Below, piece by piece: positions 231-50,353 of a stretch of 64,000 nucleotides of DNA (within the stretch, counting starts at the first letter, position 1; every line of letters begins with the position of its first letter). Source of the DNA: Primulina eburnea (lineage: Eukaryota > Streptophyta > Magnoliopsida > Lamiales > Gesneriaceae); the NCBI RefSeq assembly GCF_022965805.1, contig NC_133114.1:11428261-11492260 (forward strand), read 5' to 3'. The position numbers and the translations under genes are program-made. The notes beneath the pieces were generated by a model. It made no database searches, had not been told where the DNA came from, and saw only the letters and a program-made list of their open reading frames with translations.

Positions 231-381
231 GATAGATCCTTTAGATTGAGATAGAAGAGTCTAGTGAGCGGGGTAGATTGAGGTTTTCTTTCCTGCTTTT
301 GAATGCTAGCATGTCTTACTGCTTTGTTACATGTTACTTGTTTATCTGATTTGATATAGTAATATGTTTTATTGAGATTGG
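231..381 (+). other. Leader of element A, first part
   Basis: This is untranslated leader between the primer binding site and gag. Similar leaders with the GAGCGGGGTAGA motif occur after the primer sites of C, D and E. It is broken at 381 by the Athila-type insertion and resumes at 11815. No reading frame is seen. Confidence 0.75.
377..381. repeat. Target-site duplication (left), ATTGG
   Basis: ATTGG directly precedes the LTR that starts with TGATAAAC and is repeated at 11810-11814 after the second LTR. Confidence 0.95.
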
Positions 382-942
382 TGATAAACATAAAAATTGT
401 ACATTAATTAAATGTTTTATAATATAAATATATAGTTTTTGTTTTATTAAATGTTTAAATATTATATGTTTTATAATAAATTGTATAAAATATAAGTTGT
501 TGTGTAATTATAAGTTTTTACTATTTTTACAGGTTCGATAAAAGAAGAATAAACTTGGCATTGCAAATGGGATTAAGATGATTCTTGGACCTGTAGAAAG
601 TTGATGTTAATATCTACAATATTGATGGCAAGCATGAGATAAAAATCCTTTCACAATTGTGATCAAATTAAGCAACAATTAAAGTTACCAAAGGAGTGGC
701 AGTTTTACCATGCTCTAGTATTTTGACCATATCTCTCAAATTACTTGGTCAAATATTCTGAAAAAAATACCACAACTAGACAACTCAATTATCCACATGT
801 TTCATTTTATGTGAAGAAGCAAATTCGAAGAAGAAGACCTTCAAAAGTGATGTGTAATATAATAATAATTTCTTGGAACACCAATGAAGACTTTTGTGTA
901 AAAAAATAATATTTTATTTGTGGTTGTCTCCCCAAATTTGGC

Positions 943-950
943 TATAAATA
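943..950 (+). promoter_or_regulatory. TATA box of the Athila-type 5' LTR
   Basis: TATAAATA followed by GGGG lies 561 bp into the LTR. The same element sits at 10794-10801 in the 3' LTR. A transcript start about 30 bp downstream would leave roughly 1 kb of R-U5 and leader before gag. Confidence 0.7.
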
Positions 951-1165
951 GGGGTGTATTGTAATGTATGGAGATATCCCTCATTCTATGAACAAATCTT
1001 TGAGTTCATAATATTTCTCTCTATTTTTTTCTTTTATTTCTTCATTTAAATATAATTAGCATGTTAATTTCAAATTCAAAGTTTTACACTTTGAATAATG
1101 AATAGCTAACTTCCTAAAGTTGAGATGATAAGGTGAAACTCTTGGCATGATAATAAGGTTATTAT

Positions 1166-1174
1166 AAGGTAAGA
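1166..1174 (+). promoter_or_regulatory. Candidate 5' splice site in the LTR (R-U5)
   Basis: AAG|GTAAGA at 1168/1169 is a near-perfect plant donor. It lies about 220 bp downstream of the TATA box, so it would be in the transcript. Partner acceptors are proposed at 7445, 8233 and 8306. Confidence 0.5.
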
Positions 1175-1292
1175 ATCTATGTTTTATATTATTTAATCAT
1201 TATTTATTGTTTATGTTATATTTATTTCTTTAAGTATTTTTATACCCTACTTATAAGTGGGAGTTTTGATTTATTGTTGCTATATGTTACAC

Positions 1293-1560
1293 TAAATTCT
1301 TGGAACCATTTAAATGTTAGTTTGGTATTACCAACCATTTAAAGTGGATGCCTTGAGTTATTATATATAAATATATTATAATATTAAATTCTTGGAACCA
1401 TTTAAATGTTAGTTTGGTTTTACCAACCATTTAACTTGGATTCCTTGATTTACTATATATAAATATATCATAATAATATTTTCTTGGTACCATTTAAATG
1501 TTAGTTTGGTTTTACCAACCATTTAAAGTGGGAACCTTGATTTAGTGTTTACAAATATAT
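1293..1560 (+). repeat. Three tandem copies of a ~93-bp repeat in the LTR
   Basis: Each unit starts near TTCTTGGAACCATTTAAATG and contains ACCAACCATTTAA. Starts are near 1296, 1389 and 1481. The same block is present in the 3' LTR (about 11144-11411). Confidence 0.85.
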
Positions 1561-1971
1561 ATATAGCACAATAAATACTTGACCACATTTATAAGTTTTG
1601 GTATATATTATATACTTATAAGATAATAATATATAACATAATATAAATATGATTATTTAATATATTGGAACCATTTTATTAAGTGATTTCAATATTGTTC
1701 ATTAATGTTAATTTTATTAAAATGCCAAGAGTGGATCCTTTAATCTCAACTACTTAAATTAAAATTTGAACAATTAAAATTTACCCATTAAAGATTCAAT
1801 TAAAATTAAAAAGAAACAAAAACAAAAACAAAAACAAAAACAAAAAGACATTATAGTGGACTTGTAATTACCTTTGCTTCCCTGTGGATACGATATTCGT
1901 ACTCACCGAATTATATTACTTGTGGACAACCTGCTCTTGGGAGTGCAACAATCAAAGTCGCAACAAGTTTT

Positions 1972-1987
1972 TGGCGCCGTTGCCGGG
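1972..1987 (+). promoter_or_regulatory. Primer binding site of the Athila-type element
   Basis: TGGCGCCGTTGCCGGG lies 6 bp after the LTR end. This is the primer site type known from Athila/Tat-lineage elements (tRNA-Asp or tRNA-Arg has been reported as primer; I did not check which). It differs from the TGGTATCAGAGC sites of every other element here. Confidence 0.85.
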
Positions 1988-2095
1988 AAAGTATAATTTA
2001 ATTTCAAGTCTATTTAATTTTGTTTATAGTTTATTTTTATTTATTTGAATATTTATTGCTTTTGTGTGTTTTTATTCTTTTGCATTTGCATTTGC

Positions 2096-5000
2096 ATGAG
2101 CATTTGGTCACGTACACTTAGTGGTCGACTCATTCGAAATAACCCTTTATTTTTACAAAACATGGCGGAAGAACCCATCCAAGAAAATGAAGATGAAATT
2201 CAATCTCAACATGATCATGATAGACGAAGAACACTTAGAGATCACATGAATCCTACACGTACTAGTGCACCTTCATGTCTAGTTTTTCCCCCTGATGCAT
2301 CTCATTTCAATTTTAAGCCTGGTATTATCCAACTTTTACCCAACTTTCATGGCTTAGATTCTGAAAATCCATACATGCATTTACGAGAGTTTGAAGAAGT
2401 GTGCAACACATATAATGATCTAAATTGTAGCATGAACACCATTCGACTTAAGCTTTTTCCTTTTTCTTTAAAAGATAAAGCTAAAACTTGGCTACAAAAT
2501 CTTAGATCGGGATCCATTCGAACTTGGGATGAATTGCAACAACAATTTTTGAAAAAGTTTTTTCCATCTCATAGAACAAATTCTTTCAAAAGGCAAATCA
2601 TCACTTTCACTCAAAAACAAGGAGAAACTTTTTATCAGTGTTGGGATAGATACAAAGAATTGCTTAATCTTTGTCCACATCATGGTTTTGAAATTTGGAG
2701 AGTTGTTTCTCAATTTTATGAAGGCTTAACACCTAAAGATAGGCAAATGGTTGAATTTATGTGTAATGGAACATTTGAAGATAAAGATCCAAACGAGGCA
2801 ATTGAGTATCTCGATTCATTAGCTGAAAATGCTCAAAATTGGGACACTATAGGTACAATCGAACCATCAAACAAGATTCAATCTCCTACATCTGGTGGAG
2901 GTATGTACACTCTCAAAGATGAACATGATCTTCAAGCTAGATTTACCTCTTTGGCAAGAAAAGTTGAGGCACTTGAATTGAAAAAGAACGGTCAATTAAA
3001 ATCTGTTCAAGAAATTGCGTGTCACATCTGTGATACAAGTGATCATTTTACAAAAGATTGTCCCACTTTGCCGTCTTTTAAAGAATGTCTCCATGAACAA
3101 GCCAATGTTTTGAACAATTTCAAAAGGCCAAATTTTGAACCATTTTCTCAAAATTACAATCCAGGTTGGCGAAACCATCCAAATTTTAGTTGGAGGAATG
3201 ATAATGCTGCACAATATCCGCAACCACATTTTCAAAATCAACAAAATTTCCAAAATTATGCACCTTATGTTCCTCCGCCGAAAAGAAATTTGAAAGATAC
3301 ATTGAATTCTTTCATTGCAAAGCAAGAGTCTATCAATACTCAAACTGCTCAAACCATGACAGATTTGAAAGATACTCTTGCTAAATTTGCATCTGCACTT
3401 AATGTTCATGAAAAAGGTAAATTTCCTTCACAACCTTTGCCTAATCCCAAGGATCATCATACACAAACTGGAACTTCTGCAACTCAACCGATGGATCAGG
3501 TAAAATCTGTTATTACCCTTCGAAGTGGTAAGGTTGTGGAAAAATCCATTCTTGAACCTTGTGAAGATGATGATAAATCAACTCCAAAGGGTAAGGAAGT
3601 GGAACCCATAACTTGCGAAGAGGAGGTTCAACAGACAGTGTCACCACCATTCCCTCATGCATTGAAAAATACAAAAAAATCAAATTTGAATTCTGATATA
3701 TATGATATTTTTAAACAAGTAAAAGTTAATATTCCTTTATTAGATGCAATAAAACAGGTACCATCATATGCTAAATTTTTGAAAGACTTGTGCACTATGA
3801 AAAGAAAATTGAATGTGAAAAAGAAAGCATTTTTAGCAGAACAAGTAAGTGCAATCATTCAAAATAATAATGCTTTGAAATACAAAGACCCTGGTTGTCC
3901 TACTATTTCTTGTATTATTGGAGAACGAAAGATTAAAAAAGCCTTGCTTGATCTTGGAGCAAGTGTTAATTTACTTCCATATTCAGTTTATCAAGAACTC
4001 AATCTAGGCGAGTTAAAACCTACTTCGGTAACACTTTTACTTGCTGATAGATCTGTTAAAGTGCCAAGAGGTATGGTAGAAGACGTGTTGGTCCAAGTTG
4101 ATAACTTTGTATATCCTGTCGATTTCATAGTTTTAGATACACAACCTATCGAAGCTTGTAATGCAATTCCTGTAATTTTGGGTCGTCCATTTTTAGCAAC
4201 TTCTAATGCTCTTATAAATTGCAGGAATGGAATAATGAAGTTGTCATTTGGTAACATGACCTTGGAGCTCAATGTTTTTAATCTTTGTAAGCAACCACAT
4301 GACAAAGGAGATGAAAGTGAAGATGAAAATCTTATTGAAACTCTTGTGGAAGAAAACATTCAAGAAGGGAGTACTCGTGATCAATTAGATATTTGTTCAA
4401 TTGAAACTGTTAAAGAAAATATTGAAATTGATCTTGATGATTTTATCAGGTATCACTCGTTACCAGGATCAGAGAAAGAATTTGAGGCGAAATATGAGAA
4501 CAAAGACGAACCACCCATATTGGAGTTAAAACCCTTGCCAGAAGAATTGAAGTATGCATTTCTTGGAGAAGATGAAACATATCCAGTGGTAATTTCTTCC
4601 AAACTAGAAAGTGATCAAGAAAGTAAATTAGTTGATATGCTTAAAAGACATAAAAATGCAATTGGTTGGACACTGAAAGATCTCAAGGGCATTAATCCAC
4701 TAATTTGCACACACAAAATTCATTTAGAAGAAAATGCTAAAACATCTCAACAACCACAAAGGAGATTAAATCCACACATGAAAGATGTTGTGAAAACTGA
4801 AGTTCTCAAACTACTTGATGTTGGGATTATCTACCCTATTTCTGATAGTAAGTGGGTAAGTCCAACACAAGTAGTTCCAAAAAAATCTGGCATCACAGTG
4901 ATAAAAAATGAAAAAGGTGAATTGTTAACAAGTAGAGTCCCATCTAGTTGGCGGATGTGTATTGACTATAGAAAATTAAATGATGCCACTAGAAAAGATC

Positions 5001-7405
5001 ATTTTTCATTACCATTTTTGGATCAAATTTTAGAAAGAGTAGCTGGTCATCCCTACTACTGTTTTCTTGACGAATATTCAGGCTATTATCAAATTCCCAT
5101 TGCACTCGAAGATCAAGATAAAACTACATTCACATGTCCTTTTGGAACATTTGCATTTAGAAGGATGCCATTTGGATTATGCAATGCCCCAGCAACATTT
5201 CAAAGATGTATGCTAAGCATTTTTTGCGACATGGTTGAAAATTGTTTGGAAATTTTCATGGATGATTTAACTGTCTTTGGGAATACATTTGATAATTGTC
5301 TTGAAAATTTGGAAAAAGTTTTAAAAAGATGCGAGGAAAAAGGTCTTATTTTAAATTGGGAAAAATGTCATTACATGATTACTTCTGGAATTGTTTTGGG
5401 ACATGTCGTGTCATCTCATGGAATTGAAGTTGATAAAGCAAAAGTTGATGTCATTGCCAATTTACCCCCTCCAAAAACCATTAAAGAAATTCGATCATTT
5501 TTGGGACATGCTGGATTTTATAGGAGGTTTATAAAGGACTTTAGTTTAATCTCTAAACCCATTTGTAACCTCTTAACAAAAGACACTGCATTTGAGTGGA
5601 CTCAAGAATGTCAAAATGCTTTTGATAAAATCATTCGACATTTAACATTAGCTCCTATCATGCAACCTCCTGACTGGTCTTTACCATTTGAAATCATGTG
5701 CGATGCGAGTGATTATGCAGTCGGTGCATTACTGGGTCAAAGAAGAAACGGTAAGCCTTATGTGATATATTATGCAAGTAGAACTTTAAACAATGCTCAA
5801 ATGAATTACTCCACAACTGAAAAAGAACTACTTGCTGTAATATTTGCATTAGATAAATTTCGTTCTTATTTGATTGGATCAACGACTTTTGTGTTTACTG
5901 ATCATTCTGCTATTAGATATTTGTTGACGAAACAGGATGCAAAGCCACGACTGATACGATGGATTTTGTTGCTCCAAGAATTTGACATTGTGATCAAAGA
6001 TAAAAAAGGAACCGAGAATGTCGTAGCCGATCATTTATCGAGACTAGTAACAGGATCATCTTGTGAAATGACACCAATTAATGATAATTTTCCTGATGAA
6101 CATCTATTTTCAGTTACTACTACACCTTGGTTTGCTAATATAGTAAATTTTCTTGTGACAGGAAAAATGCCACCTCAATGGAGTTCCCAAGATAAGAGAA
6201 AATTTTTGAATGAGGTAAAAAACTTTTATTGGGATGATCCGTATCTGTTCAAGTACTGTCCAGATCAAATTTTTCGACGTTGCATACCCGACAATGAGGT
6301 AAGTAGTGTCATTAAATTTTGTCATTCAGAAGCATGCGGAGGACATTTTTCTTCAAAGAAAACGGCTGCAAAAATTTTGCAGTGTGGATTTTATTGGCCC
6401 ACTTTGTTTAAAGACACCCACGAAATCTGCAAGATCTGTGAAAATTGTCAAAAATTGGGTTCAATTTCAAAAAGAAACATGATGCCTTTAAATCCTATCA
6501 TTGAAATTGAAATCTTTGACTGTTGGGGAATTGATTTTATGGGACCTTTTCCACCGTCGTTTGGATACTTGTATATTTTAGTTGTAGTTGATTATGTTTC
6601 CAAATGGATAGAGGCAATTCCATGTCGAACAAATGATCATAAAATCGTCATCATATTTTTGAAAGAAAATATTTTTAGTAGATTCGGAATTCCTCGAGCT
6701 ATGATAAGTGATGGGGGAACTCACTTTGTTAATAAACCATTTGCTTCATTAATGAAAAAATATGGTATTACTCACAAAGTAACAACTCCTTATCATCCTC
6801 AAACAAATGGACAAGTTGAATTAGCTAATAGGGAGATAAAGCAAATTTTGGAAAAAACTGTTAACTCAAATAGAAAAGATTGGTCTCTGCGACTTAATGA
6901 TGCACTGTGGGCATATCGAACAGCTTTTAAAACATCATTGAATATGTCTCCCTATAGGTTGGTTTATGGAAAACATTGTCATTTGCCTGTGGAATTGGAA
7001 CATAAAGCTTATTGGGCGATCAAAACTTTAAATTCAAGCATGGACGATGCCAACAAATTGCGTAAATTGCAACTTAATGAACTTGATGAACTCAGAAATG
7101 ACGCATATGAGAATTCGAGGATTTATAAAGCAAAAATAAAATCATTTCATGATAAAACAATTCTTAGAAAATCTTTTGAGATTGGTAAAAAAGTTTTGCT
7201 TTATAATTCTCGACTTCACATATTCCCAGAATTACGATCAAGATGGACAGGCCCATATGTTGTAAAGCATGTGTATCCTTATGGAGCTGTAGATATTGAA
7301 AATACTAAAAATGGTGATGTTTTCAAAGTGAATGGACAAAGGCTTAAACCATTTTTGGAAAATGAAATCTTTCAAGAAGAGTTTATTTCCCTTTCTGATC
7401 CTTAA
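2096..7405 (+). CDS. gag-pol: Athila-type gag-pol polyprotein (intact)
   Basis: This 1769-residue frame encodes every protein needed for reverse transcription and integration. The gag core spans about residues 83-211. A zinc knuckle CX2CX4HX4C uses C309, C312, H317 and C322. The protease active site is D619-LGAS. RT spans about 920-1110 with FMDD at 1054-1057. RNase H starts near D1203 and ends near 1312. The integrase zinc-binding part has H1410, H1417, C1448 and C1451; the catalytic triad is D1480, D1539 and E1575 with a 35-residue D-E spacing; a C-terminal tail follows. I chose the first ATG (2096); a second in-frame ATG at 2162 (MAEEP) is a plausible alternative. There is no stop or frameshift. 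Codon use is AT-rich, like the rest of the element. Confidence 0.95.
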
Positions 7406-7424
7406 ATTTTTATGTTGCATTTAA

Positions 7425-7445
7425 TTTTGTTTGTTTTTATTTCAG
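7425..7445 (+). promoter_or_regulatory. Candidate 3' splice site after pol
   Basis: A T-rich tract ending TTTTTATTTCAG|GT lies 40 bp after the gag-pol stop and 127 bp before the next ORF. This is where an env-type acceptor would be expected. Its best donor in the LTR is at 1169. Confidence 0.5.
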
Positions 7446-7572
7446 GTTTCCCTAATCTTTTTATTTTCCCGGTTAAATGGCGGATAACGGTACTCCGTGA
7501 CTCTCATAGTCGGTTAAATCAGTTTCCCACAATTGCTGATACAAAAATAAAAAAAAATCATTTCTTTTCAAA

Positions 7573-8118
7573 ATGGATGAAATTCTCTCAAAAATTTGTA
7601 AATATTTTCCCTCTGTTTCTGAAAATGTTCTAAGAAAAATTTATGCAGGAAGGTGTGAAAGATTGAGATTGCTAATGCAAAAAGGAATTCCAGAAGATAT
7701 TCGTCTTGTAATTGAAGCTAAGGTCCGATTAGGAGGAGAAGTTCCACAATCATTGCTCATTCGGTATTTGCCTGGATTAGGAAAAAGCACTTATGCGAAA
7801 AAACGAAGGGCAAAAAGTTTAGGGGTTTGTCATAAGTGTGCAAGATGGACTTGTGACAAACGATGCAGATCTTTGGGATGTGTTTCCAATAACAGAGAAG
7901 ATAAAATTGATTTCATTAAGAATGGGCTGAGTAAGGAGTCTTTAGATAACATCTTATTGACTCTTGAGACGCATTCTAGTGGACATGTGCATATTGAACT
8001 TCTCCGTTTATGGAAACAATTCCAAGGTGAGCGTCATAGTCTTGGGAATCTGACTAAAAAAGACCATGTTTGCCAATTTATAAGAAAATTGGATGGGAAG
8101 CATATCCTCGACTCATAG
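7573..8118 (+). CDS. Virus-like cysteine-rich nucleic-acid-binding protein (carlavirus NABP-like), retrotransposon cargo
   Basis: This 181-residue frame has no stop or frameshift. Residues 70-81 form a basic motif, GKSTYAKKRRAK. It is followed by cysteines C86, C89, C94, C98 and C103, giving C-X2-C-X8-C-X4-C with one extra Cys, then a hydrophobic-acidic stretch near 110-120. A basic block directly before such a finger is the layout of the small cysteine-rich proteins of carlaviruses and relatives (viral NABP family). In those viruses they bind nucleic acid, suppress RNA silencing and, in at least one case, enter the nucleus and activate a host gene that drives cell proliferation. That assignment is from memory of the family, not a search. 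The C-terminal third (about 120-181) is unlike anything I recognise. No membrane segment is seen, which argues against an env protein. Expression probably needs splicing or reinitiation. Confidence 0.62.
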   Translation: MDEILSKICKYFPSVSENVLRKIYAGRCERLRLLMQKGIPEDIRLVIEAKVRLGGEVPQSLLIRYLPGLGKSTYAKKRRAKSLGVCHKCARWTCDKRCRSLGCVSNNREDKIDFIKNGLSKESLDNILLTLETHSSGHVHIELLRLWKQFQGERHSLGNLTKKDHVCQFIRKLDGKHILDS

Positions 8119-8233
8119 AAGGCGTTGAAGCCGTTTCTGGACGTAAAACCAGAGGAAAATTGTGAGCCACAATCACACTACTGTTTATATGCATGTGTGT
8201 CATTATTGTTTTTACTATTTATTCTGTTTACAG
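8027..8233 (+). other. Candidate intron linking the virus-like and LOG-like frames
   Basis: The donor AAG|GTGAGC at 8026/8027 and the acceptor TTCTGTTTACAG at 8233 are both good matches. The interval is 207 nt, a multiple of three, and contains the only stop (TAG, 8116-8118) between the two ORFs, which share one frame. Removing it would leave a single continuous frame. Inference only. Confidence 0.35.
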
Positions 8234-8286
8234 CTGTGACCCATAGTTTTGTCATGATAACATATTACCCCTATAAAATCTCTCAT

Positions 8287-8306
8287 CTTTCTCTCTATTT
8301 TCGCAG
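8287..8306 (+). promoter_or_regulatory. Candidate 3' splice site before the LOG-like ORF
   Basis: A CT-rich tract ending TATTTTCGCAG lies 22 bp before the LOG ATG (8329). It could give a separate spliced message starting with the LOG-like ORF. Confidence 0.4.
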
Positions 8307-8328
8307 AAAAAAAAAAGAAAGTAAAAAC

Positions 8329-8967
8329 ATGGCTGGATCCTCTGCACAAACATTGAAAAATATTTGTGTATTTTGTGGGTCGAGTCCTGGAAAAAATGAA
8401 GTGTTTGTAGAAGCAGCGAATAATCTTGGAAATATATTGGCTGAGAGAAAAATTCACTTGGTATATGGGGGAGGTAATATTGGGTTAATGGGATCTGTTT
8501 CAACATCTGCTCATCTTGGAGGTAGTCAGGTTTTGGGTATTATTCCTATAGCTTTAGCTGAAGGAAATATTACAGGTGTTACGATTGGGGAGGAATTAAA
8601 AGTTTCTTCTATGTATGAAAGAATCACTCAAATGATTGAAAATTCTGATGCTTTTATCGCACTACCAGGTGGTTTTGGTACATTAGAAGAAATTTTTCAC
8701 ACTGTTTCTTGGGCACAACTTAATATCCATAATAAACCTGTGGGCTTGTTGAATATCAATAATTATTATGACAGTTTGTTGAAATTTCTTGATAAAGCTG
8801 TGGAACAGAATTTCATTTCAGAAAATTCACGACGGATGCTCATCTGTGCTTCGACTGCCGATCAATTAATTGATGATTTGGAAGCTTTTGTTCATAAGCC
8901 TGATCCGATGATAACAAAGATTAATTGGTCGCAATCAAACAGTAAGAAAAGGAAGTTGGATCATTGA
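8329..8967 (+). CDS. LOG-like: LOG-like cytokinin riboside 5'-monophosphate phosphoribohydrolase, retrotransposon cargo
   Basis: This is a 212-residue Rossmann-fold protein of the LONELY GUY family, close to the usual length of plant LOGs. The family cleaves cytokinin riboside monophosphate to the active free base and ribose 5-phosphate, in cytosol and nucleus. Visible signatures are VFCGSS near 14-19, GGGNIGLMG at 47-55, the arginine of MYER (R98), PGGFGTLEE at 113-121 with the catalytic-type glutamate E121, and WAQLNIHNKPVGLLN near 128-142. Most plant LOGs have RK at the R98 position; here the Lys is Ile99. The C-terminus is basic (SKKRKL, 205-210) and could act as a nuclear signal. Plant LOG genes normally have several introns; this frame has none, as expected for capture through RNA. 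I chose ATG 8329 because homology begins there. The frame stays open upstream but has no ATG near the end of the previous ORF. Confidence 0.93.
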   Translation: MAGSSAQTLKNICVFCGSSPGKNEVFVEAANNLGNILAERKIHLVYGGGNIGLMGSVSTSAHLGGSQVLGIIPIALAEGNITGVTIGEELKVSSMYERITQMIENSDAFIALPGGFGTLEEIFHTVSWAQLNIHNKPVGLLNINNYYDSLLKFLDKAVEQNFISENSRRMLICASTADQLIDDLEAFVHKPDPMITKINWSQSNSKKRKLDH

Positions 8968-10218
8968 TTCAAAAGTCGTGGATTGGTTTGCATTTGTTTC
9001 AGTTTGTTATCTTCAATAAAATTCCAGGTGATATCTCTTTCATTATGCACTCTTTATTACTAGTTATTTTGACATTAGGGACAATGTCATATTCTGATTG
9101 GGGGGAGAACAAACTTATATAAAAAAAATTTAAAAAAAAATTAAAAAATTAAAAAATATATATATTATTTTAAAATAAAATCATGTTTATTGTTTGTATC
9201 TTAGTAATTTTTGCAAAAATGTTATACATTACATGTTTGAAAGATTTAAATTAGAATATGCATTAATCTATTTAAGAATGTTTAAATTTTTATTTGAAAA
9301 AAAAAATGTCAATTTTAATATTCTGATCAATATAAAAATATGATTTATGAAATCTTTTTGAGTGATTAACCATTGTGATAAAATCAGGTATTAAAGTATA
9401 TGGCCCAAGATATACCTTATAAGAGTGCCTAAAATTTTAAACTCACACATATTTTGTGAGTGAGTGGAGAGGACTGAGAAAACAGCTTTCGAGCCTTTAT
9501 TGATCATGAGAGAGACTATCTATTGTTTAGATCTTGAGTTCTTATTTTGAAAAAAAAATGATATTTCCTGAAAAAAAAAAAAAAGAAAAAAAAAGAGAAA
9601 AATACAAAAAGAAAGATGTTGAAGATCTATGTAATTTTTAAGTTATATGCTGCGACCCATTTTTCTCTCATAAGAATAAAAAAAAAAAAAAGAAAAAAAA
9701 GAAAGAGAGAAATACATTGTACAAATTAAATAAATATGTGGTCAAAAAGCATAAACTTAGTCTGATTTCATGATGTAAAAAAAAAAAAAAATCAGGAAAA
9801 AAAAAATATAATAAGAACAACTGGATTTTAAATCAATGGATTTTCTATCTTTTGATTAGTTTGGCTCGTTTGTCTGTCTGCATTCTGTAAACCATTTTCC
9901 TGAGTATTCATCTGTATTCCAACTCCATGAGAGAAATCGTTGCCATAAATAGAAACATTTATTAACCTGTGAGGATATGGAGTTGAGACTCTTACTAGGA
10001 ATTTCTGAAGGCCGTGTACACTTAACTACCTGAAATAAGCTTTGAATTAATCATCTCAAATTATTTCATAAATTATAATTATGATGATCTTGATATAACT
10101 TTGACAGTTTTCAAATTTAATTTAAACACTTAGATAGTTTTGATTACATTTCTATTTAAATTAATCAATATGTTTTGTATTGCTATTAACGCTTAAATTG
10201 CTAGGGACTAGCAATAAG
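8968..10218 (+). other. 3' noncoding region of the Athila-type element
   Basis: About 1.25 kb without a supported ORF. It contains several A-rich runs (for example 9549-9600, 9678-9705 and 9776-9808) separated by AT-rich sequence, as in other Athila elements. I see no tRNA-like or other known RNA fold. Confidence 0.8.
9096..9110 (+). promoter_or_regulatory. Internal polypurine-tract-like element
   Basis: GATTGGGGGGAGAAC occurs just after a GGGACAATGTC motif. The motif resembles sequence found at the end of coding regions of Athila-type elements. It could prime a second plus-strand start, but this is untested. Confidence 0.4.
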
Positions 10219-10232
10219 CTGGTTGGGAGGTG
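10219..10232 (+). promoter_or_regulatory. Polypurine tract of the Athila-type element
   Basis: A G-rich purine stretch, CTGGTTGGGAGGTG, directly precedes the 3' LTR. Confidence 0.75.
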
Positions 10233-11809
10233 TGATAAACATAAAAATTGTACATTAATTAAATGTTTTATAATATAAATATATAGTTTTTGTTTTATTA
10301 AATGTTTAAATATTATATGTTTTATAATAAATTGTATAAAATATAAGTTGTTGTGTAATTATAAGTTTTTACTATTTTTACAGGTTCGATAAAAGAAGAA
10401 TAAACTTGGCATTGCAAATGGGATTAAGATGATTCTTGGACCTGTAGAAAGTTGATGTTAATATCTACAATATTGATGGCAAGCATGAGATAAAAATCCT
10501 TTCACAATTGTGATCAAATTAAGCAACAATTAAAGTTACCAAAGGAGTGGCAGTTTTACCATGCTCTAGTATTTTGACCATATCTCTCAAATTACTTGGT
10601 CAAATATTCTGAAAAAAATACCACAACTAGACAACTCAATTATCCACATGTTTCATTTTATGTGAAGAAGCAAATTCGAAGAAGAAGACCTTCAAAAGTG
10701 ATGTGTAATATAATAATAATTTCTTGGAACACCAATGAAGACTTTTGTGTAAAAAAATAATATTTTATTTGTGGTTGTCTCCCCAAATTTGGCTATAAAT
10801 AGGGGTGTATTGTAATGTATGGAGATATCCCTCATTCTATGAACAAATCTTTGAGTTCATAATATTTCTCTCTATTTTTTTCTTTTATTTCTTCATTTAA
10901 ATATAATTAGCATGTTAATTTCAAATTCAAAGTTTTACACTTTGAATAATGAATAGCTAACTTCCTAAAGTTGAGATGATAAGGTGAAACTCTTGGCATG
11001 ATAATAAGGTTATTATAAGGTAAGAATCTATGTTTTATATTATTTAATCATTATTTATTGTTTATGTTATATTTATTTCTTTAAGTATTTTTATACCCTA
11101 CTTATAAGTGGGAGTTTTGATTTATTGTTGCTATATGTTACACTAAATTCTTGGAACCATTTAAATGTTAGTTTGGTATTACCAACCATTTAAAGTGGAT
11201 GCCTTGAGTTATTATATATAAATATATTATAATATTAAATTCTTGGAACCATTTAAATGTTAGTTTGGTTTTACCAACCATTTAACTTGGATTCCTTGAT
11301 TTACTATATATAAATATATCATAATAATATTTTCTTGGTACCATTTAAATGTTAGTTTGGTTTTACCAACCATTTAAAGTGGGAACCTTGATTTAGTGTT
11401 TACAAATATATATATAGCACAATAAATACTTGACCACATTTATAAGTTTTGGTATATATTATATACTTATAAGATAATAATATATAACATAATATAAATA
11501 TGATTATTTAATATATTGGAACCATTTTATTAAGTGATTTCAATATTGTTCATTAATGTTAATTTTATTAAAATGCCAAGAGTGGATCCTTTAATCTCAA
11601 CTACTTAAATTAAAATTTGAACAATTAAAATTTACCCATTAAAGATTCAATTAAAATTAAAAAGAAACAAAAACAAAAACAAAACAAAAAGACATTATAG
11701 TGGACTTGTAATTACCTTTGCTTCCCTGTGGATACGATATTCGTACTCACCGAATTATATTACTTGTGGACAACCTGCTCTTGGGAGTGCAACAATCAAA
11801 GTCGCAACA
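10233..11809 (+). repeat. 3' LTR of the Athila-type element
   Basis: 1577 bp, nearly identical to 382-1965. The 7-bp length difference lies in the CAAAAA repeat. It carries the same TATA box (10794-10801) and 93-bp repeats. Confidence 0.96.
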
Positions 11810-11814
11810 ATTGG
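11810..11814. repeat. Target-site duplication (right), ATTGG
   Basis: This is an exact copy of 377-381. Removing 382-11814 restores the leader of element A. Confidence 0.95.
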
Positions 11815-46456: not shown

Positions 46457-46621
46457 TGTAATGCCCAAGAATTTGATTATAGTAATCTGAAATGATTTGG
46501 GTATGATTACCGTAATCTGGAATTAATCTGAAATGATTTATTAATTAATTACGGTAAATATAGACGGAATGGATCGGACCAAAACACATGAGAAAGGTGT
46601 GGATTGTGTGTGCAAAGAAAT

Positions 46622-46900
46622 GAGTTGGCGCACATGCGCGATGGAATGGAGCGCACATGCGCGAGCAGGGCAGAAGCCTGCGCGCACATGCGCGACTTCA
46701 CAGCGCGCACATGCGCGGAACGTCCAGAACCCTCGGCGCACATGCGCGGACGAATGGCGCGCATATGCGCGGAAATTCCAGAGCCCTCGACGCACATGCG
46801 CGGTAGAGTGTCGCGCATTTGCGCGAGGGAGTGCCGAGACACACGCGCTGAAGAATTGTGTCTTGCGCATATGCGCGAGACACAATCCGCGCATATGCGC
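46622..46900 (+). repeat. GCGCAYATGCGC palindrome array, D 5' LTR
   Basis: About ten copies of the 12-bp palindrome, the same motif as element A. The last copy ends 50 bp before TATATATA at 46951. Confidence 0.9.
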
Positions 46901-46950
46901 GAGACGTGCTGCATCAAGGAGCGGGACACGTTGCCTTATTCATGCATGGA

Positions 46951-46965
46951 TATATATATATATAT
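46951..46965 (+). promoter_or_regulatory. TATA-like run, D 5' LTR
   Basis: A TATATATATATATAT run at the standard distance from the palindromes; the partner copy is at 53291-53304. Confidence 0.6.
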
Positions 46966-48049
46966 GTATAGACATACGATAATTCTCAGAAAAAGAAAAA
47001 AAAAAGAACCGAGGAAGGAGCTCAAAGTTTTCTTTGAAAATTTCTATCGTGATTTACGAGCGATCAGTCCGTCAGATTTTAAATCCGACTTCGGTACCGA
47101 GTTCCTATCAACGTTTACTACAACTGGACGTAAGTTTTGCTACGTTTAGACATGTTTTGAATTTATGATATTGTCTAAATTGAATAGGATTTAGATATGA
47201 TGCTCTTGACATAGTAGACATCGTATATCTGAAGTCAGATTGAAGAACGGACTGTGTATGGAATTGTTATGAATTTTTAGAGTTTATTCGATTGTAATAT
47301 ACTGAATTGATATCAGAATCATGGTATTATTGATTTTGTGATACTGGGATTGATATCTGATTTGTACTGTATCACTGGATATATTGATATTAACCAGATT
47401 GGGAACGGATGAGTTGTTGACTTGTTGTATCAAGATTTTATTGCCGGGATTGCGGGATTGTACAGAATGGATATAGAATTTTGTGTTGATATTGATATTG
47501 ATTATGAATTTCTGTATTATATCTGTGATGTTGGGATTGACGGGGTTACTGAAATTGTATTGTCATACCGTCGAAACATCAGCGAATTGATATTGATCAG
47601 ACTCAATATTGATTGTGATTATATCGTGATATTGTCGATATGAATTGGATTGTGTCTTGATTCGATATTAATCAGAACAGGCTTTGAATTGAGCTGTAGA
47701 TTGACACAATCTATTCGATATTGTGAATTCAGATTGACATGGACAGACGTGAAATGGAGTCTTCGTCTTCGTCAGACCATGAAGACAAAGGTATAAGTCA
47801 ATGTGGTATTGGGAGATGGACTTGAGTCGGTTTAGACTCGGGTTTCCCGAAATCACATACTTTACTTTATTGCATTGATATTTGCATTGATTGATTGATA
47901 TACTTGTTTTCTTGAGTTATAGATTACAGGTATTAGAAGAGTAATCTTATGACAGAAGTGCCGTTAGTGGGGGGATTACCACGGGCACATTGCACGATGT
48001 CATAAGATGGTGTATTGGCGGATGTGCCAAAGACGGTCACTGGATGTTG

Positions 48050-49002: not shown

Positions 49003-49387
49003 CGTAGGTCCTTGAATTGTAGGTTCCTTAGCACTGAGATAAAAGTTAGTGAGCGGGGTAGATTGAGTTTCTTTCCCTGCATGTGATTGTTAGCATGTGA
49101 TTTTATATACTAGTGATTTATATGTATGCTAGCATGATATTATGTTTTATTGCCTGGATTTATATGGCATAGAAATGCATATAATGTTGAAATAACATTG
49201 TATCTGCTAAGATTTCAGTATGTTGTTACTGTGTCTTAAACTACATGTTACCTGGATATCGGAGATGATTTGGTAATATGTATTATATGAAACGGGATCA
49301 GAACCAATTCTTGATCAGAGGTAAGCTGATCGGGATTGGGATTGAGACGGATTTGTCTCTTGTTACTACTAACGTCTGTGATTATCA
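49003..49387 (+). other. Leader of element D
   Basis: Noncoding leader with the GAGCGGGGTAGA motif (about 49032); no ORF. Confidence 0.7.
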
Positions 49388-49438
49388 GATATTCCTCCTA
49401 GAAGGATTCCAGAACGGGGTAGTACATCGTATGATCAG

Positions 49439-50353
49439 ATGGATGTGTCTGAAACTCTGATGGAAACACAGATGATAAGATTTCAGTCGTTTCAACCACC
49501 GATTTTGAGGGGTGTCGAGACACCAGCTGATTGTGAGACTTGGCTGGAGGAGATCGAAATGCTGTTTGAATTTCTTGGATTCACAGACGAGTGCAGAATT
49601 AGACTGGTTGGGAATCAACTACGGGAAGTCGCTAGGAGTTGGTGGCTGGTAAACCGGGAAGCCATAGTACAGCGTGGTTTCACGATTACATGGAATCTTT
49701 TCAAAGTTGAATTTTATCAAAGATTTGTACCTTTATCATATCGAGAGGACAAAAGTGCAGAATTTGCAACTTTGAGGCAAGGTTCATTGAAGATCGATGA
49801 ATATTTGGCCCATTTCTTCACCTTGTTACAGTTCGGTCCGCTAGTGGCTAGAAATGATACAGCTGTAGCTGATCAGTTTATCAAGGGCTTGAATCCGGAA
49901 ATACGCACCTTGGTGACTGTGAAACAACCGAGTAATTTTGCGGATACTCTGAATCGAGCCAGAAGAGCAGAAACCGTTCTAATGAGACAAAAAGAAGCTT
50001 CATATGTTCTTCCAACACCGATACCACAACAACTGCCTTCCAGAATCGAGATGGGCAGATATAGTGGAGGAAAGAAAGAGATGTTGAAAGTTCAAAAGAA
50101 GCAATTTAAGAAATTTGGGAGCGGTTCATCTAGCTCCAGTGGCTCTAGTCCGAATTATACTGGAATTTATTGCAGGAATTGCGGTGGAAGACATTCCCCG
50201 GAGCTATGCCACGGAGTGACTGGTCGGTGCAACTTCTGTAAACAGCAAGGACACTTTGCTAGAGTCTGTCCACAAAAAAGTGCCCGAAGATTTCAGGGAG
50301 CAGGATCATCTGGGGGTGGTGATCGAGAAACAGACCCAGGACATACTGAATGA
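49439..50353 (+). CDS. gag: Element D gag (start codon shifted)
   Basis: 304 residues if the ATG at 49439 is used. The gag core runs from FQSFQPPILRGVETPADCETWL to about residue 180. Two zinc knuckles follow, CRNCGGRHSPELC and CNFCKQQGHFARVC. The frame is open upstream to 49391, but the codon matching the usual MPPRR start is ATT (49391-49393), so the first 16 codons are probably lost or unused. The frame ends at a TGA where A and C continue into protease. The gag core has no stops, in contrast to the ruined pol that follows, which fits selection on gag. Confidence 0.8.
   Translation: MDVSETLMETQMIRFQSFQPPILRGVETPADCETWLEEIEMLFEFLGFTDECRIRLVGNQLREVARSWWLVNREAIVQRGFTITWNLFKVEFYQRFVPLSYREDKSAEFATLRQGSLKIDEYLAHFFTLLQFGPLVARNDTAVADQFIKGLNPEIRTLVTVKQPSNFADTLNRARRAETVLMRQKEASYVLPTPIPQQLPSRIEMGRYSGGKKEMLKVQKKQFKKFGSGSSSSSGSSPNYTGIYCRNCGGRHSPELCHGVTGRCNFCKQQGHFARVCPQKSARRFQGAGSSGGGDRETDPGHTE

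Follow-up and report, generated by a model that had tools for sequence, protein, structure and literature searches.

The question raised by this locus is what two genes of different kinds are doing between pol and the 3′ LTR of a plant retrotransposon: one (ORF A) for a protein that resembles carlavirus NABPs, the other (ORF B) for a homologue of the cytokinin-activating enzyme LOG. To our knowledge, the roles of extra ORFs in plant retrotransposons are largely unknown. ORF A ties a plant element to a viral silencing-suppressor family, and ORF B to a hormone enzyme that is easily assayed; the role of such ORFs thus becomes directly testable here. We analyzed the whole 64,000-nucleotide stretch of Primulina eburnea DNA in which the locus lies, referred to below as the window.

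A complete, young element of putative Athila type

Positions 377-11814, target-site duplications included, make up one complete LTR retrotransposon of the Ty3 group, which we assign to the Athila type. The duplication, ATTGG, stands at 377-381 and again, letter for letter, at 11810-11814. Alignment of the LTRs places the 5′ copy at 382-1965 and the 3′ copy at 10233-11809, both on the forward strand; they show no substitution at 1578 aligned sites and a single 7-bp gap. The gag-pol frame (2045-7405, forward strand) runs through 1786 codons without a stop, from a TTG taken as the start by the ORF lister to the stop codon at 7403-7405, and profile searches found RT, RNase H and integrase within this one ORF, in Ty3-type order. 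Both ORF A and ORF B are intact between the gag-pol stop and the 3′ LTR. The first-pass annotation had proposed a young element with two intact frames 3′ of pol, and the LTRs, the intact gag-pol and the two frames agree with it on both points. No second copy of ORF A or ORF B was found within the 64-kb window.

The sequence TGGCGCCGTTGCCGGG at 1972-1987 (forward strand) reads as the primer-binding site (PBS), presumably of the Athila tRNA-Asp type. The Athila-type assignment is our own. As described in the accessible text of PMC1142308, Athila4, Calypso and Diaspora have long LTRs and one gag-pol ORF, as here, and a tRNA-Asp-type PBS, as is presumed here; the putative PBS type is in line with that of Diaspora. 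Athila relatives have an env-like 3′ ORF or none, whereas this element has two unrelated accessory genes instead.

ORF A resembles carlavirus proteins

ORF A (7573-8118, forward strand) encodes a basic, Cys-rich protein of 181 aa. It matched the Pfam family Carla_C4 at E=2.4e-7 (31 bits, above the cut-off of 20.9) and Viral_NABP at E=2.1e-4 (21.8 bits, below the cut-off of 23). Within the aligned ORF A family, 109 of 121 members matched Carla_C4 and 114 of 121 matched Viral_NABP (E<=0.01). When ten family members were reversed as a control, none matched the two viral families. Eight of the ten gave hits at E<=1 in an unrelated Cys-rich family, seven of these at E<0.05, and one reversed ORF A decoy stood just above the cut-off of that unrelated family (2.6e-5, 25.2 vs 25 bits). 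Cys-rich make-up alone can thus yield matches near 1e-5, and a single profile match needs care.

Like carlavirus CRPs (NABP/CRP, for example p12 of chrysanthemum virus B), ORF A has a Cys-rich finger that comes after a basic stretch. The finger takes the form CX2CX4CX3C in 102 of the 121 family members, and a basic run is present in 108. The viral CRP spacing, given as CX2CX12CX4(C/H) in the accessible text of PMC10141686, occurs in 0/121, and ORF A is therefore filed as CRP-like, not as a CRP member. Unlike carlavirus CRPs, ORF A proteins are also longer (about 182 aa) and have a conserved C-terminal region, and their home is a retrotransposon, that of the CRPs an RNA virus.

The AlphaFold model of ORF A is weak (pLDDT 67.8, pTM 0.35). 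It gave five matches to PDB folds, none significant (best E 2.4), and 14 weak matches to viral folds, again none significant. Ranks 1, 2 and 6 of the viral matches (E 0.4, 1.6 and 4.8) are taken by silencing suppressors or NABPs, which come from Fig latent virus 1, chrysanthemum virus B and garlic virus A. The best E in a PDB sequence search was 0.44, PHROGs yielded no match, and viral contigs scanned with ORF A, the ORF A family and the LOG family returned 55, 161 and 98 pattern matches, of which none was confirmed. The carlavirus NABP-like identity proposed in the first-pass annotation is upheld by the profile search, with Carla_C4 above its cut-off, and we consider a distant relationship to carlavirus proteins, with a different finger spacing, likely if not proven. 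Carlavirus CRPs suppress silencing, and chrysanthemum virus B p12 (CVB p12) also induces hyperplasia, according to the accessible part of PMC12172455; by analogy, ORF A may suppress silencing as well.

ORF B is a predicted LOG enzyme

ORF B (8329-8967, forward strand, 212 aa from its ATG) can be firmly identified, from profiles and predicted fold, as a homologue of LOG (cytokinin riboside 5′-monophosphate phosphoribohydrolase). It matched Lysine_decarbox at E=7.6e-38 and TIGR00730 at E=1.1e-52, and the closest PDB entry is 2a33 (At2g37210; E=2.4e-64). The NCBIfam equivalog CtkRMPhLog was matched below its cut-off (124 vs 300 bits). The AlphaFold model has a mean pLDDT of 89.4, and its best PDB fold match is again 2a33, with 54% identity in the best structural alignment. 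The active-site motif PGGxGTxxE appears as PGGFGTLEE at residues 113-121 and is preceded by R98; R98 and E121 are presumably catalytic. R98 is kept in 96% and E121 in 97% of 114 LOG relatives (residues were counted in 114 of the 120 relatives and in as many of the 120 hosts). ORF B thus has the fold and active-site motif of plant LOG enzymes such as At2g37210, in accord with the earlier identification of the second frame as LOG, and is predicted to be enzymatically active.

ORF A is conserved in a second element

A database search returned 314 relatives of ORF A, and among the best 120 of these the named sources are Xanthoceras, Populus, Rhamnella, Orobanche and Acer. In a Rhamnella protein, ORF A is fused to the end of an integrase, which is 63% identical across 133 aa. 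One of 108 pattern matches, the 3330-bp contig L001, is Athila-like DNA in which pol (75% amino-acid identity) is directly followed by ORF A (71%), as in the window. No LOG follows ORF A on this 3330-bp contig, which shows that the two genes are separable. L001 (1-3330) is plant retroelement DNA filed within a Candidatus Nomurabacteria MAG, apparently by contamination.

In a copy this young, an absence of stop codons does not prove selection, and the evidence for selection comes from the comparison with L001. Between these two sequences ORF A has a dN/dS of 0.27 (bootstrap 0.17-0.43), not near 1, which indicates that it is under purifying selection between the two elements. In pol, where synonymous sites approach saturation, dN/dS is 0.11. 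The first-pass annotation had argued from stop-free frames that both ORFs were kept until recent transposition. In so young a copy such frames do not prove selection; for ORF A it is supported by dN/dS.

Conservation extends to the nucleotide level. Over the final 40 codons of the ORF A gene, synonymous divergence between the window and L001 is 0.13, compared with a minimum of 0.41 across 486 pol windows of 40 codons. Two noncoding blocks on the forward strand flank the gene, one before it (7465-7509, with 39 of 45 bases identical to those of L001) and one after its stop (8119-8151, 28 of 33 bases identical). The blocks and the low synonymous divergence over these final codons fit a cis-acting element; with two sequences compared, the blocks may instead reflect recombination. 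When four segments from around these blocks were folded as RNA, the z-scores were 0.16, -1.18, -0.83 and -1.93, and no clear structure emerged.

Candidate splice signals upstream of each gene

Splice sites were scored with a simple matrix based on general plant splice-site frequencies, which covered 429 AG sites in 1966-10230. The best-scoring candidate acceptor of the 429, at 7445-7446 (forward strand), lies between pol and ORF A and scores 9.8, against 6.8 for the next; an acceptor-like tract is found at the same place in L001. Ranks 2-4 fall within gag-pol. Ranks 5 and 6, also on the forward strand, precede the LOG ATG, at 8233-8234 and 8306-8307, the latter 23 nt before it. A candidate donor in the LTR at 1168-1169 (forward strand) has the second-best score between 1000 and 7400; the best-scoring donor, 6298, lies in pol and not in the LTR, which counts against splicing from the LTR donor. 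Position 1168 is 225 nt downstream of TATAAATA at 943-950 (forward strand), a putative TATA box that was chosen among five matches in the 5′ LTR for its setting, GGCTATAAATAGGGG. The layout of these candidate sites is that expected of spliced subgenomic mRNAs, which are plausible here.

ORF A and LOG lie in one frame, separated by a single TAG at 8116-8118 and an open linker, and the sequence past the ORF A stop is conserved in L001 and can also be seen in relatives P0055 and P0070, as it might be if readthrough of the TAG produced one fusion protein. This we judge very improbable and reject. The L001 frame closes 22 codons past the ORF A stop, with no LOG there, and the frames of P0055 and P0070 also end shortly after the stop. 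In the 33 bases after the stop, four of the five base changes between the window and L001 alter a residue, so that nucleotides, rather than a peptide, are conserved. The common frame is open across 8119-8328 and would encode a hydrophobic segment, perhaps as a by-product of pyrimidine-rich splice signals.

The LOG relatives form a separate clade with a distinctive ending

The search with LOG found 7982 relatives, and the best 120 include proteins of Populus, Reevesia, Diplodiscus, Xanthoceras and Primulina. They are about 58-79% identical to the window copy, with intact frames and active-site residues kept. Together with the window copy, the sampled relatives group in a single clade, separate from host LOG1/3/4-type proteins and supported at 100/99, in a length-filtered tree of 45 of the 120 relatives plus the window copy, 13 of 120 hosts, 2a33, one LOG8 and two bacterial LOGs. 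Another length-filtered tree, of 60 vs 29 rows (59 of 120 relatives plus the window copy; 29 of 120 hosts) gave the same separation. The host sample (best 120 of 7941) is LOG1/3/4-like, other host groups being represented by the one LOG8. The clade has members from Populus, Reevesia, Diplodiscus and Primulina, and so from at least three plant families, Salicaceae, Malvaceae and Gesneriaceae. Rooted on the two bacterial LOGs, the clade falls outside host LOG1/3/4 and LOG8; in view of a long-branch warning, we do not claim a pre-plant origin of the element LOGs.

Three Xanthoceras LOG proteins (P0122, P0123 and P0156) were too long for both trees. One Xanthoceras protein absent from the trees combines LOG pieces with part of a gag-pol, which matches at 50% identity across 50 aa (E 4e-11). 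Element sequence is directly attached in two cases, the window and P0122; for most of the 120 relatives the label 'element LOG' stands for clade, ending and copy number, from which we infer that most of them reside in elements.

LxLxL occurs within the last 8 residues of 103 of the 120 relatives and of 0/120 host LOGs. Within the last 28 residues, LxLxL accompanies a basic run in 100 of 120 relatives; the basic run is present in 1 of 120 hosts. The combination recalls, to us, an EAR motif beside a nuclear localisation signal. Unlike host LOG1/3/4-type enzymes, the element LOGs are thus a distinct, long-branched clade, most of whose members have the basic and LxLxL ending. The window LOG ends in SKKRKLDH, without LxLxL, and its nearest relatives, P0121, P0124, P0130 and P0144, likewise lack it.

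The two genes as a pair

Both genes have relatives in several further plant families. Contig sizes shared by the two lists of relatives, 8723 (P0033 for ORF A, P0126 for LOG) and 4511 (P0017 and P0190), suggest, without proving it, that ORF A and LOG lie on one contig elsewhere; a third common size is that of a Xanthoceras chromosome and is uninformative on linkage. In the ORF A tree (105 rows), P0033, inferred to be LOG-bearing, is nearer the window and P0017, likewise, is nearer the LOG-free L001; supports are weak, and the known cases are too few for gains or losses to be counted. We regard the recurring accessory module in an Athila-type lineage as real.

Possible roles of the two genes

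The reading that we favor, tentatively and at slightly less than an even chance, is that of a young Athila-type element with a virus-like nucleic-acid-binding gene and a LOG, each probably made from its own spliced mRNA, which likely blunt silencing and raise cytokinin. Splicing from the LTR donor at 1168 would supply a separate mRNA for each gene. ORF A would bind nucleic acid, whereby host RNA silencing would be blunted, and ORF B would activate cytokinin, so that host cells kept dividing. The element would then copy itself in dividing cells, to its own benefit. We infer the nucleic-acid binding, the splicing from 1168 and the benefit; a cell-division effect of the pair is suggested by analogy to carlavirus proteins and LOG biology.

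ORF A might instead serve the element's own RNA, as a chaperone or in packaging or nuclear export, and not act as a suppressor; its viral likeness would then be a common basic, Cys-rich design, and LOG would be kept for another purpose such as nucleotide metabolism. The finger spacing, the want of a significant structural match and the nucleotide-level conservation beside ORF A, which could be a cis-acting RNA element, speak for this explanation. It accounts less readily for matches to two viral families across 109 and 114 of 121 members, and for plant-virus silencing suppressors or NABPs at ranks 1, 2 and 6 of the 14 weak viral folds, and we see it as possible but on the unlikely side. The LOG could also be a passenger, a host gene that was picked up and is drifting, intact here only through the youth of this copy. 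LTRs without substitution, the LOG-free L001 and a window copy without the LxLxL ending are compatible with such drift, whereas relatives at some 58-79% identity have retained frame and active-site residues and form one clade whose ending is absent from 120 host LOGs. Databases favor intact proteins, so intact LOG relatives are an incomplete test, and we hold a passenger LOG to be improbable.

A wider proposal, which we rate as unlikely, is that of a widespread lineage of plant Athila elements equipped with regulators of their own. One would share its origin with the silencing suppressors that filamentous RNA viruses encode; the other would be a captured LOG that gained a nuclear, corepressor-binding (EAR-type) ending. 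With these the elements would disarm silencing and reprogramme cytokinin signalling in the cells that harbour them. Such a lineage may be the source of the viral suppressor gene, or the reverse. A common origin of element gene and viral suppressors, if true, would inform the question of how RNA viruses come by genes of this kind.

Relation to described elements

Two Athila-like elements with likeness to LOGL4 were reportedly described by Steinbauerova et al. in 2011. The YgdH elements of Citrus and Populus are, we assume, like this one in being Athila elements with a LOG-type gene 3′ of pol. In these Gypsy LTR elements, known as consensus sequences, a LOG-type (YgdH) domain lies inside a plant Ty3 element, as here (PMC9289625, in its accessible part, which cites Steinbauerova 2011 as the earlier report). 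The same part of that paper mentions no carlavirus-type protein, pair, LxLxL ending or splice signals in them. The first-pass annotation knew of no described retrotransposon with the pair. Its LOG half is already in print (PMC9289625); as far as our literature searches reach, novelty stands for the virus-like gene, for its pairing with LOG and for the ending. Full-text searches over main texts, for the most part of openly accessible papers, turned up no report of any of the three in plant LTR retrotransposons, the virus-like gene being understood as one for a protein of carlavirus type; they included the accessible parts of PMC7264820, PMC6317226, PMC11728184, PMC6338049, PMC10219291 and PMC3136472. 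A parallel is offered by retrotransposons of insects that contain an SF1 helicase domain of viral type: this virus-related accessory domain has weak silencing suppression and is proposed to help the element. These elements differ in their hosts, in the domain and in its place inside the polyprotein (PMC6338049, accessible text).

Setting of the element and other features of the window

When the flanks of the element are joined, they match three places in the window (49242-50313, 42804-41366 and 28265-26854), each as one alignment spanning the junction, which indicates that the element is nested in another retrotransposon, upstream of the gag of that host element. Tandem copies with a 92-bp period lie within both LTRs, at 1201-1560 and 11052-11411. 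Rfam gave no match at gathering level in the window or in L001; a snoR71 match at 2580-2688 on the minus strand, antisense within gag, scored slightly below the gathering score of 40 (38.4 bits, E 6.7e-5). At 46604-47149, the window also contains a 181-aa frame built of AHMRGRMARICAE-like repeats.
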